Shown here piece by piece: positions 60,187-64,000 of a stretch of 64,000 nucleotides of DNA. Made by a program: the position numbers and the translations under genes. The notes below the pieces were generated by a model that was not told the origin of the DNA, did no database searches, and saw only the letters and a program-made list of their open reading frames with translations. Position 1 is the first letter of the stretch, and the number at the start of each line of letters is the position of its first letter. Origin of the DNA: Planctomycetaceae bacterium (GTDB taxonomy: Bacteria; Planctomycetota; Planctomycetia; Planctomycetales; Planctomycetaceae). Location of the stretch: positions 1-64,000 of the forward strand of contig JADZEF010000272.1 in the NCBI GenBank assembly GCA_020850695.1, in the 5' to 3' direction.

Positions 60187-61026
60187 CTACATCCAGAGGT
60201 GCACGCGGCCCTGCAGCTCAGAGGGCAGCCGCTTCTCGAGAGCCTTTCGGACCTGACTGTCGTGATACCGGGTGCTGAAGTGCCCGAGGATGATCAGCTC
60301 GTTCTTGAAGCGATCCTTCCGCTCGATCAGATCGTCGAGGTGGGTATGGCCGAACTTGTGAATCTTTTCCTTCCGGTGCTCCGGGCGGAAGAATGTCATT
60401 TCCGTAATCAGCACCTGTGATTGATACACGGCAGGATCATTATCGAGCCCCGCCGGTGCGGTGTCACCGCAGTAACAGATGACAGGACAGCGCATTTCCT
60501 GGGTCACTTCGGTCCCTGCCAGCCGCAGATCGCGGATCTGGTTGCCCGAGAGTCCCTGGTACTCGGTCTTCAGTTTCTTGCGGCGCTCCCAGACGATATA
60601 TCCCACGGACGGGACGGTATGTACGGTCCGGAAGACCGTCACGACGTGCTCGCGTGAGAGTTCCAGTTCATCCCCGGGTTTGACGCCGACGAGGTTGCAG
60701 ACCTGCCGGCCGCGATCGAGCCGTTGCCAGGCCATCAGCAGCCGTTGCGTGTTCTCGACGATCTCTTCCGGGAGGTAGATCGTCGGCGGGTCCATCTTCA
60801 TCATGCGGCGGCGTGCCACATACACCGGCAACCCCGCAAGGTGGTCGAGATGCGGGTGGGTGACGAAGAAGGTCTGCGTCCCCATGAACGACCAGGGGCT
60901 GGCGCCGAGGTCGAAGCCGAGCTTGAGCTCGGGAATTCGCCAGTAGCTCTGGACGGCGGCTCGCGACCACCCCTCAATGGTCAGACCCTTGAATTGAAGC
61001 GACTGGACCGGCAGGTTTTCGACCAT
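60187..61026 (-). CDS. RNase Z-like MBL-fold metallo-hydrolase
   Basis: A 279-residue hydrolase of the metallo-beta-lactamase fold. The zinc motif THPHLDHL has His57, His59, Asp61 and His62; a later Asp is in [10 protein letters not shown], and the final His is in GHFSTRYHD. The acidic motif CxGDT and the GHTHLDDL segment match RNase Z-like proteins. True tRNase Z has a longer flexible arm, so this is the arm-less branch often annotated as RNase Z homolog. Cytoplasmic. It is transcribed next to the oxidoreductase gene, 37 bp downstream of it, probably in one unit. Confidence 0.85.
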
Positions 61027-61063
61027 TGGAAACGCGGGACGCGACTCGATCTGCGGGGGATGT

Positions 61064-62113
61064 TCAGGCGATGGGGGTCAACTGGCCGGACGCAATACTC
61101 TGGGCCTCGGCGAAGCAGACCTTGAGGGCATCGCGCGCGAGATCACCGGAGAGCACCGGAGAGGGTGTTCCCGACGTCACCGAGTCGACCGCCGCCTGGA
61201 GTTCCGCTGTGAACCCCGCACACCAGGTCGTGCCGCCGCTGAGGATGGGCGTCGTCGCGTGACCATCATTGGTGATGACCGTCAGCGGCCGGTTGACCGT
61301 CCATTGACCGGCCAGGGTACAGGCGTCGAACAGAATCGTCGCATCCTCAAAGTAGGCTTCGAAAGCATGACCGAAGGCTAGTCCCTTCGCGGCGATTCCG
61401 CCGCTCACACAGCTGACCGACGGGCCGCCCTCTCCGAAGACATATTGAGTCTGCACATGGTTCACCAGTCCGTCCTGCAGTAACCCGCGCGAAAAGACTG
61501 CTTTCGGCACCCCGCACGACAGGCAGATGAAGTGGTTGTCGTGGATATGGAGGTCAATTCCCCATCCGCCGAGTTTCCGGAAGTCCGACATGTCGGAAGA
61601 CCAGTCGGGCCGGCTGATGACGCGGCGAAAATGGGCCGCGTGCAGCGTTCCGTACTTCTTCGTGCGGATGACTTCGTTGAGGAACCCGAATTCTGGGAAG
61701 AAGGGCAGCACCTGGCCGACGAGGAGAAGTTTTCCGGCCTTTCGGGCTGCGGCCACCATCCGGTCGGCCGCCGGAAGATCGACCGAAAGGGGCTTCTCCA
61801 CCAGCGTATGTTTTCCCGCCGCCAGGGAATCGAGCACGACCCGTTCGTGCAGATCGGTGGGGAGGCAGATATCGACGAGGTCGATGTCGGGGTCGGCGAG
61901 GAGTTCGCGGTAGTCGCGGAATTTGCGGACTGCGGAAAGATCGACGTGTCCGCCGCGGGGGCCGAAGTTGCCTTGAATGCTGGTCCAGTCGCCCGCGAGC
62001 TTTTTTTCGTCTCGGGTGGCGATGGCCGTGACGGCTGCACCGCGCAGGTCGCGTGCCCCCTCAAAATGTGTGTACCCCATGAACCCGATGCCGATGATGC
62101 CAATGCGGGTCAT
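61064..62113 (-). CDS. Gfo/Idh/MocA family oxidoreductase
   Basis: A 349-residue NAD(P)-dependent enzyme. Rossmann opening [17 protein letters not shown], the EKPLSVD motif with the catalytic Lys, and a C-terminal alpha/beta domain with [20 protein letters not shown] carrying the conserved Asp/His pair. These enzymes oxidize or epimerize sugars, inositols or biliverdin. No signal peptide, so cytoplasmic; many planctomycete relatives have Tat signals, but this one does not. AGGGA precedes the ATG at 62113. Substrate unknown. Confidence 0.88.
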
Positions 62114-62640
62114 CGCGAACTGTCCCTGGAAGAAAAGGAACGCGGCGTCAGGCGATAAGGAAATCGAAGCGTGACGGAGCGATGCCGTTCTACTTCAATT
62201 TCCGTGGACTCGCCACTCAAGCTCATAATATCGGCTGGCGCTCTGCGATCCGACCTCGCACGTCGATTCCGTGAGGTCGAGAGCGGATATGACGGGTCGT
62301 TACAGCGCCTGAAATGAAACGCATGCTCAGGTTGCTCGAGTTTTAGGCGATCGCCCATTTCGGGAAGCCAGTTCGCTGCTGCTGGCAAATCTAAATTCTT
62401 GAGGGGTTTGTGACGACATTGGCCGGGTGCGGGATTGAGGCCTGACGCGAGTGCTGAAGATGTTGGCACTCACCCAGATAGGAGACATTGGGCCAGCACC
62501 CTTGCCCGGAGAAAGTAAGAGACATAGGGGGAGTGGGAAGTTCTGGTTGTTTTGAAAATTCCAATCCTGGCGTCTGGATTTTTTGGCTTCGGGTGTGTTA
62601 TCCTGCTGATGACGTGGTCAACTTGACGACACTCTGGCTC
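62114..62640. other. Intergenic region upstream of csrA, no gene recognised
   Basis: About 530 bp with no supportable reading frame. A TGn-extended -10-like word, TGTTATCCT, lies at 62596-62604, 108 bp before csrA, with only a weak -35 (TGGATT, 62575-62580). It might be the csrA promoter. Confidence 0.35.
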
Positions 62641-62659
62641 GCTTCTTTTGAGGTACTGC

Positions 62660-62711
62660 TGGAGAAAACGAGGGATGCCTGCGGATGCAGGCCTTTGCAG
62701 GAGTTGGACTC
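62660..62711 (+). promoter_or_regulatory. csrA leader with a CsrA-type hairpin and repeated GGA motifs
   Basis: Within about 50 bases before the csrA ATG there are five GGA triplets: GGAG (62661), GGGAT (62672), CGGAT (62682), AGGAG at the ribosome site (62699) and TTGGACTC. The central one is the loop of a perfect six-base-pair hairpin: GCCTGC (62677-62682), loop GGAT (62683-62686), GCAGGC (62687-62692). GGA in a hairpin loop and overlapping the Shine-Dalgarno is the known CsrA/RsmE target pattern, so autoregulation is inferred. Confidence 0.65.
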
Positions 62712-62918
62712 ATGCTGGTTCTGTCGCGGAAGACCGGCGAGCGCATCATGATCGGCGACCAGGTCACGATCACCGTGGTGCGAATCGGCCCGAACAACGT
62801 TCGCATTGGGATCGAAGCTCCCCGGGACATGAATATCGTCCGGGAAGAGTTGGTTCCCCCGGCCGAGGGAACCCCGGCGGCTGTCAAAACGCCCGAGACG
62901 GCGACGGCGGGACACTGA
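62712..62918 (+). CDS. csrA: Carbon storage regulator CsrA
   Basis: A 68-residue RNA-binding dimer, MLVLSRKTGERIMIGDQVTI then VVRIGPNNVRIGIEAP and IVREEL, the full CsrA core including the conserved Leu4, Arg6 and Arg44-region residues. The C-terminal tail after about residue 48 (PPAEGTPAAVKTPETATAGH) is a Pro/Ala/Thr extension that is short and disordered. CsrA binds GGA motifs near ribosome sites and changes translation and mRNA stability. AGGAG lies eight bases before the ATG at 62712; the open frame from 62685 is not used. It stands alone, not by a flagellar or fliW gene. Confidence 0.93.
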   Translation: MLVLSRKTGERIMIGDQVTITVVRIGPNNVRIGIEAPRDMNIVREELVPPAEGTPAAVKTPETATAGH

Positions 62919-63069
62919 TCCTGCCCGGAACGGAGTCGGAAGGGTGTGCCACAGGAAAGGCCATAAGTCTCACTCGCCGTTGACGTTCTGTCCGGCTGCG
63001 TGAAATGTGCGCCCACCGTTCTTTCACGGTTGTGGCGATAAGAAGTGAACTCGTACGACCGGGTTTTGG

Positions 63070-63819
63070 ATGCCGTCCAATCCCCGACACCAGTGCCCCT
63101 CACTGCTCTTCGAAGAGACGCTCAGCCAGTCGGGGATCGTTGCCAGCAACCGGATGAACCGCGAACGCCGGTTTGTTGGAGAGAACAGCTACTCGAAGGA
63201 CCTGCGACTCGACTTGGAGGCCTTCCTGTCTGAGCGGCTCGCGCGGAATTCGGCGTCGGTCGACGAGCCTAAGTCGGATGCCGAATCTGTGTTGTGGCTC
63301 GATCTCTGCTGTGGACAAGGCTTTGCGCTCCGCCAAGCCGTGCAGATGTTCGCGGCGCAGCCGGGCCGAAGGTCGCTGCAAATCGTCGGTGTCGATCTTG
63401 TCGTGGACGTCCGCAATCGAGATCCACATCCCCAATTGCGAATTGTCGAGGCGTCTCTCCCGAGCTGGCGGCCTGACCGCCACTTCGACCTGATCACCTG
63501 TGTACACGGCCTGCATTATCTCGGCGATAAGCTGGACGTGATCGCGTTGGCGGTCGGGTCTCTGAAACCCGACGGACTTCTGGCGGCACACCTGGACCCG
63601 GCGAATCTTCGACATCCGGCAGATTCCCATTTCGGTTCCCGGGTCGTTCGCTGGCTGAAGCGGTCCGGCTTCGAGTATCACGCCCGGTTTCGTCGAATCG
63701 TCTGCCGCGGACCACGACGGCTGGAGATTCCGTGGCGATACCTTGGGGCGGATGACACCGCAGGCCCCAACTTCACGGGCCAGCCCGCCGTCGATTCGTG
63801 GTATGGAGACCCTGAGTGA
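63070..63819 (+). CDS. Class I SAM-dependent methyltransferase
   Basis: A 249-residue protein with a Rossmann-type methyltransferase core: motif I WLDLCCGQGFALRQ, the acidic strand VVGVDLVVDV, motif II-like FDLITCVHGLHYLG and a post-motif LKPDGLLAAHLDP. The first 70 residues include CPSLLFEETLSQSG and RRFVGENSYSKDL; the latter is seen in small methyltransferases acting on small molecules. ATG 63070 has no strong ribosome site; ATG 63154 is possible. It follows csrA by 151 bp on the same strand. Substrate unknown. Confidence 0.75.
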   Translation: MPSNPRHQCPSLLFEETLSQSGIVASNRMNRERRFVGENSYSKDLRLDLEAFLSERLARNSASVDEPKSDAESVLWLDLCCGQGFALRQAVQMFAAQPGRRSLQIVGVDLVVDVRNRDPHPQLRIVEASLPSWRPDRHFDLITCVHGLHYLGDKLDVIALAVGSLKPDGLLAAHLDPANLRHPADSHFGSRVVRWLKRSGFEYHARFRRIVCRGPRRLEIPWRYLGADDTAGPNFTGQPAVDSWYGDPE

Positions 63820-64000
63820 ATCACCCGCCCGTTGCCGCGTGCGCGATCGACGACTACGATCGACCGCCACGGCGCTCGCTCGGTGCGACGAATCATTCCC
63901 CCTGCGGACGATCACCAGTCGGTCTCCCATGAGACATGATCCCGACGTGCAGCGAGCCGCCAGCTCGTACCGTCTTGGACTCCCCCGATTCCCGGTGACC

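Follow-up and report, generated by a model that had tools for sequence, protein, structure and literature searches.

Comparative evidence gives good support to the view that a CsrA-family protein acts on the leader of a csrA-like gene in at least 25 genera, pointing to a conserved CsrA-type site upstream of the Shine-Dalgarno (SD) sequence. The gene lies in a 64,000-nt stretch of Planctomycetaceae bacterium DNA (contig JADZEF010000272.1, here called the window), whose features are collected in Table 1. A promoter search upstream of the same gene revealed a 36-bp dyad, absent from the original prediction, which is the most novel part of the control region.

Table 1. Features of the csrA control region and its surroundings, in positions of the window
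Feature	Position	Strand	Basis
Gfo/Idh/MocA oxidoreductase, divergent, frequent neighbour of csrA orthologues	61064-62113	-	Pfam GFO_IDH_MocA
36-bp dyad TGTTATCnTTnTGAYGnCGTnnTCRnnnTGAYGACA, proposed promoter and operator	62596-62631	+	PWM, pattern search
-10-like hexamer TATCCT, TG two bases 5' (TGT TATCCT)	62599-62604	+	Conserved T, A, T at hexamer positions 1, 2, 6 and TGn
Predicted 5' untranslated leader, about 101 nt	62611-62711	+	Predicted from the -10-like element
GAGGGATG, window counterpart of the conserved upstream CsrA-type site; GGA at -39 (62673)	62670-62677	+	Position near that of orthologues; PWM 6.25
Perfect 6-bp hairpin: GCCTGC 62677-62682, loop GGAT 62683-62686, GCAGGC 62687-62692	62677-62692	+	Sequence
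Window-specific hairpin GCAGGAGTTGGACTCATGC, pairing SD and start codon	62697-62715	+	Minimum-free-energy fold of 62611-62730
CAGGAG, SD with overlapping GGA (62700), candidate second CsrA site	62698-62703	+	Sequence; orthologue GGA peak -15 to -6
csrA-like ORF	62712-62918	+	CsrA-family protein, 68 aa; Pfam CsrA 82.2 bits

A CsrA-type site is conserved in the leaders of csrA orthologues

The leaders of 129 orthologues from 48 genera were compared, a set made up of 29 loci and 100 added ones from which some matches at E 1e-15, mostly from one densely represented genus, were left out. Two further sets served for comparison: 121 control leaders of other genes from the same loci, with mechanical start calls, and 95 CsrA paralogues from 10 genomes, among which the start of one (L317) is uncertain. 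Orthologue leaders contained on average 2.68 GGA motifs in their last 60 nt, relative to 1.30 in the control leaders, and these motifs peaked at two places, between -40 and -31 and at the SD (-15 to -6). The pattern CA.GGA occurred between -60 and -18 in 83 of the 129 orthologues; it was seen in 2 of the 121 control leaders and, in stretches taken farther upstream, in 1-2 of 129. The longer form CANGGANG was found in 82/129 orthologues representing 25 genera, some 35 nt ahead of the start codon, and was rare elsewhere (6/95 CsrA paralogues, Fisher p 8e-20; 1/121 control leaders; 1/48 outgroup csrA-like loci). The site is thus conserved in sequence, in the gene that it precedes and in position (median -35, interquartile range -37 to -33), and it stands 11-40 nt from the SD GGA (median 23, n=74).

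CANGGANG matches the consensus selected in vitro (SELEX) with Escherichia coli CsrA, RUACARGGAUGU as given in PMC7652899. This agreement extends to columns that played no part in the selection of sites, which were chosen by CA.GGA alone: G at +4 had a frequency of 1.0 (mean over 25 genera) and R at -1 was present in 78%, while further unselected columns showed A or T at +3 in 74% and A at -4 in 56%. The consensus of the upstream site in relatives reads ACARGGAWG, and its canonical form is ACAGGGAAG (for example, the L021 type). Furthermore, the GGAs of the upstream sites had a predicted unpaired fraction of 0.56 versus 0.35-0.37 for control GGAs. Forty-six of the 129 orthologues, the window among them, had no CA.GGA between -60 and -18, and the upstream site was missing in 4 of 8 orthologues from closed genomes.

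Other conceivable roles of an upstream GGA are as a standby site for the ribosome, as a second SD serving an earlier start codon, or within a leader-peptide signal. The window offers some material for such a reading, as GAGGGA is followed at a distance of 9 nt by an ATG at 62685, in frame with csrA, from which the protein would be nine residues longer. The family-wide data make such a role very improbable. The base after GGA was G in none of the 83 upstream sites, as opposed to 89 of 118 leaders at the real SD; an ATG followed shortly 3' of the site in only 9 of 82 orthologues, below the 17% expected; and pairing with the ribosome as an SD requires neither the preceding CA nor the G at +4. For the family, a second SD or an upstream ORF was therefore rejected.

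GGA motifs and folding of the window leader

The original prediction had described five GGA motifs in about 50 bases before csrA, and all five are present, with their first bases at 62661, 62673, 62683, 62700 and 62706. At least five GGAs per 52 nt occurred with a frequency of 0.006 in dinucleotide-shuffled upstream DNA, and a GGA in the loop of a perfect stem of at least 6 bp in 31 of 5,000 shuffles of the 60-nt leader, both being chance tests on features picked after the fact; at least five GGAs in the last 60 nt were counted in 4 of 129 orthologue leaders. The GGA said to overlie the SD was likewise found there (GCAGGAG, with the GGA 12 nt before the ATG). The motif at the conserved position is the GGA at 62673, which the original prediction had not singled out.

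Instead, it had placed the high-affinity CsrA site in the GGAT tetraloop of the hairpin at 62677-62692, a reading that we now regard as distinctly unlikely. The hairpin exists and is perfect, a structure improbable by chance in the shuffles described above, and its loop GGA was predicted to be unpaired in three fold windows (1.0, 0.84 and 1.0). Against this reading, conservation of the loop GGA, on which the prediction had been staked beforehand, failed, since a comparable GGA-loop hairpin was present in just 2 of 129 orthologue leaders, those of the window and L022. In the loop, the A expected two bases 5' of GGA (ANGGA) is missing, and the loop GGA scores 2.42 bits with the position weight matrix (PWM), a value reached by 30-37% of random GGAs. 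In addition, the hairpin joins a G+C-rich stem of 6 bp to a loop of 4 nt, unlike the 6-nt ANGGAN loop and unlike the SELEX hairpins described in PMC7652899, most of which have at most four contiguous pairs. The proposal that the leader is built for CsrA control thus gained comparative support across at least 25 genera, but the hairpin-loop GGA did not hold as the main site.

In the window, the conserved upstream site corresponds to GAGGGATG, which lacks the CA of CANGGANG. Its PWM score of 6.25 compares with an orthologue median of 10.3 and a lower quartile of 8.03, and is reached by 6-8% of random GGAs when the matrix is built without the window, whose genus is represented by one genome in the sets searched. 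Because the sequence is weaker and the assignment draws mainly on position and family membership, we hold the window's own upstream site with lower confidence than the site of the family.

A further possibility is that the main control in the window is exerted by the hairpin GCAGGAGTTGGACTCATGC, which may hide the SD and the start codon and which CsrA would stabilize or open in the manner of pslA or ymdA, with no bridging between sites. This hairpin appears in both the minimum-free-energy and the centroid fold, with GGA partly in its loop. We consider this unlikely as the main control, as the fold energy of the whole leader (62611-62730) has a z of only -1.52 and visual inspection of other orthologue leaders showed nothing resembling GCAGGAGTTGGACTCATGC.

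Two broader searches were also conducted. Scanning the organism's own genome for the consensus site together with an SD (ACAGGGANG plus AGGAG), a search that bears on the original suggestion of a global regulator, yielded 5 matches versus 8 in the reversed control and hence no excess. Among the curated RNA families of Rfam, the sole match to positions 61000-64000 was to a snoRNA, at chance level (15.3 bits relative to a gathering threshold of 39), and no sRNA of the CsrB/RsmX/RsmZ type was matched.

The window gene belongs to a large CsrA family

The protein encoded by the window gene clears the Pfam CsrA cut-off of 27 bits by a wide margin (Table 1), and its relatives in the PDB are CsrA/RsmE (chains 1y00, 2bti, 5z38 and 2jpp). 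Alignment with these structures showed that L4, R6 and R44, which we take to be the RNA-contact residues of CsrA, are retained. The protein falls below the NCBIfam cut-offs for the CsrA equivalog (NF002469, 67.4 of 73; TIGR00202, 63.8 of 70.1), and is for this reason filed as a CsrA-family paralogue outside the equivalog. The name csrA is hence justified by the Pfam domain but needs qualification, both by these cut-offs and by the presence of 11 CsrA-family genes in the genome.

The isolation of the gene from flagellar genes, as originally described, was borne out as far as tested: both flagellin matches of the genome lie on other contigs (C24 and C222), and the neighbours are non-flagellar, comprising the Gfo/Idh oxidoreductase, a metallo-beta-lactamase-fold protein, a transporter and a methyltransferase. 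Of the 29 orthologue loci compared, 17 have an ORF homologous to the Gfo/Idh/MocA oxidoreductase with the same location and direction.

In the organism's own genome (G000; 8.6 Mb in 440 contigs, with an estimated contamination of 4.92%), ten CsrA-family genes were counted besides the window gene, and each of nine closed genomes of the same family carried 9-13. Orthologues of the window csrA, defined by a cut-off of E 1e-15, were detected in 141 of 170 family genomes, and the titles of named relatives that have them include Planctomycetaceae, Schlesneria and Fuerstiella. The orthologue group forms one side of a branch with support of 92/90, in a tree that has few columns and an unsettled bootstrap and from which L317 was omitted.

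With so many paralogues, another family member (for example, one of the canonical L001-L003 type) could bind the leader, which would then link paralogues with no self-loop. Several observations speak for such cross-regulation: the number of CsrA-family genes in this genome and its closed relatives, the fact that the paralogue L002 passes the NCBIfam CsrA cut-offs that the window protein misses, and the fit of the upstream site to the consensus of a canonical CsrA. On the other side, the site is tied to the window-csrA orthologue group and seldom precedes paralogues, as a self-loop would lead one to expect, although this is no proof of one. Cross-regulation accordingly ranks as a somewhat doubtful, but serious, alternative.

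The survey of paralogues brought several further observations. A CsrA domain is fused to a response-regulator receiver domain (Pfam Response_reg) in proteins of 246-269 aa, encoded at L008:841-1647 (-) in the same genome and at L306:301-1053 (+) and L311:301-1038 (+) in two relatives; CsrA in these fusions may be switchable by phosphorylation. Two divergent paralogues of the genome (L007:1501-1731 and L011:3005-3232) have a common C-terminal tail, NVSPxCQPLxYxLxDLF...RGTV, which suggests a recent duplication. One genome has a canonical csrA paralogue at a distance of about 650 bp from a window-csrA orthologue, with both genes in the same orientation (G120:C1:7503769-7504716), and G059, G165 and G174 contain two or three copies of the orthologue group each. 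The own paralogue L010 and L314-L316 are without the R44-type arginine, the stretch reading PYQEQ, PYWEE, AYWEE or PYRIE; since this arginine presumably has a role in RNA binding, RNA binding by these proteins is probably altered.

No FliW was detected in the organism's genome or in any of the 170 family genomes, with Bacillus subtilis and Thermotoga maritima detected as control genomes. The suggestion in PMC4682653 that Planctomycetes possibly use FliW does not hold for this planctomycete family, because FliW is absent from all 170 genomes.

A 36-bp dyad and a promoter-like element precede csrA

Scores above 12 with the PWM of the dyad were obtained for 100 of the 129 orthologues, in 36 of the 48 genera, and for none of the 95 paralogues or the 129 reversed sequences; as this matrix was built from the same orthologues that it scored, weight is placed on the reversed controls and on a pattern search. 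When up to three mismatches were allowed, 11 of 14 genomes had the pattern, each at a single place, where in some cases it was read on both strands, being a palindrome. When up to two were allowed, 55 of the 397 class genomes had it, all of them in the window's family, and none had the reversed pattern. For 53 of these 55 matches, a csrA orthologue follows at 30-175 bp on the same strand, and the remaining two precede csrA copies cut by a contig end. The dyad is also the sole high-scoring site in the window. Like the upstream CsrA-type site, it is conserved in sequence and position and specific to this gene.

The dyad is symmetric about a CG centre. Its arms displayed no compensatory change, their complementarity was close to what independent columns would give, and one pair had A-C mismatches at 42%. 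An RNA hairpin was rejected as an explanation since the arms do not covary, and the dyad is for the same reason likelier a DNA element than an RNA stem. We propose that it is an operator for a DNA-binding protein dedicated to the csrA group.

The conserved TGnTATCnT of the dyad fits an extended -10 element, and transcription is on this ground predicted to start near 62611, inside the dyad. A simple sigma-70 scan called no promoter at the dyad. A sigma-54 promoter has been reported for csrA in Pirellula (PMC12316311), and none was seen by eye upstream of the window csrA. The occurrence of the CsrA site varied with the distance from dyad to start codon, the site being present in 69 of 86 orthologues at distances of at least 100 nt and in 0 of 14 at shorter ones; orthologues with no dyad had it in 13 of 29 cases.

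Discussion

The reading that we favour, and consider probable, is that a CsrA-family protein controls the leader through two sites, in the manner of E. coli csrA or glgC, and that transcription is set separately by the extended -10 and the dyad. One face of a CsrA-family dimer would occupy the upstream site (the GGA at 62673 in the window) and the other the SD GGA; the bridged dimer would bar the 30S subunit, and translation of csrA would fall when the protein is plentiful. The upstream site would be weaker in the window's lineage, and the extended -10 overlapped by the dyad would determine how much csrA is transcribed, under its dedicated DNA-binding protein. We infer binding, repression and the choice among the 11 paralogues, as well as the start of transcription, from the comparison of sequences.

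Two-site SD occlusion and csrA autoregulation are already known in E. coli (PMC7652899). The E. coli csrA leader is autoregulated, with four CsrA sites and five promoters (Yakhnin 2011, reviewed in PMC7652899). The planctomycete leader resembles it in having several GGAs, one of them over the SD, so that a block of translation would be expected here as well, and differs in phylum and in having two conserved positions and one conserved promoter element. As in glgC (PMC7652899), where the upstream site is the high-affinity one, a site upstream and a site at the SD would be bridged by one dimer; in glgC, however, the upstream site lies in a hairpin loop, whereas here it is predicted to be less paired, with no conserved hairpin. 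The Bacillus CsrA-FliW-Hag system (PMC7652899) likewise involves translational repression by a CsrA-family protein, as is proposed for the present leader, but the family has no FliW and flagellin is not a neighbour of the window csrA. Legionella and Pseudomonas also have several CsrA paralogues per genome, and according to PMC7366521 most inspected genomes have one CsrA and Legionella has the highest average; against this background stand the 9-13 per closed genome in the window's family. The original prediction considered planctomycete CsrA targets to be undescribed, and we found none described in the open-access literature searched.

CsrA biology is based on gamma-proteobacteria, Bacillus and Campylobacter. 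The leader type of the window csrA provides a concrete candidate for a planctomycete CsrA target, present in 25 genera and written in the letters that E. coli CsrA selects in vitro, in organisms with many CsrA-family genes and no FliW. How CsrA is restrained where FliW or CsrB is lacking becomes a question that can be tested with one RNA probe and one DNA probe, and the dyad should permit a pull-down of its binder. This csrA group probably controls its own production and answers to a DNA-binding regulator. More tentatively, the once-per-genome operator with its gene-dedicated regulator and the pair of CsrA sites in the leader might form a two-layer loop on one CsrA group; if so, this loop would set the CsrA level in place of FliW and CsrB-type RNAs, in a planctomycete family with about ten CsrA-family proteins per genome.
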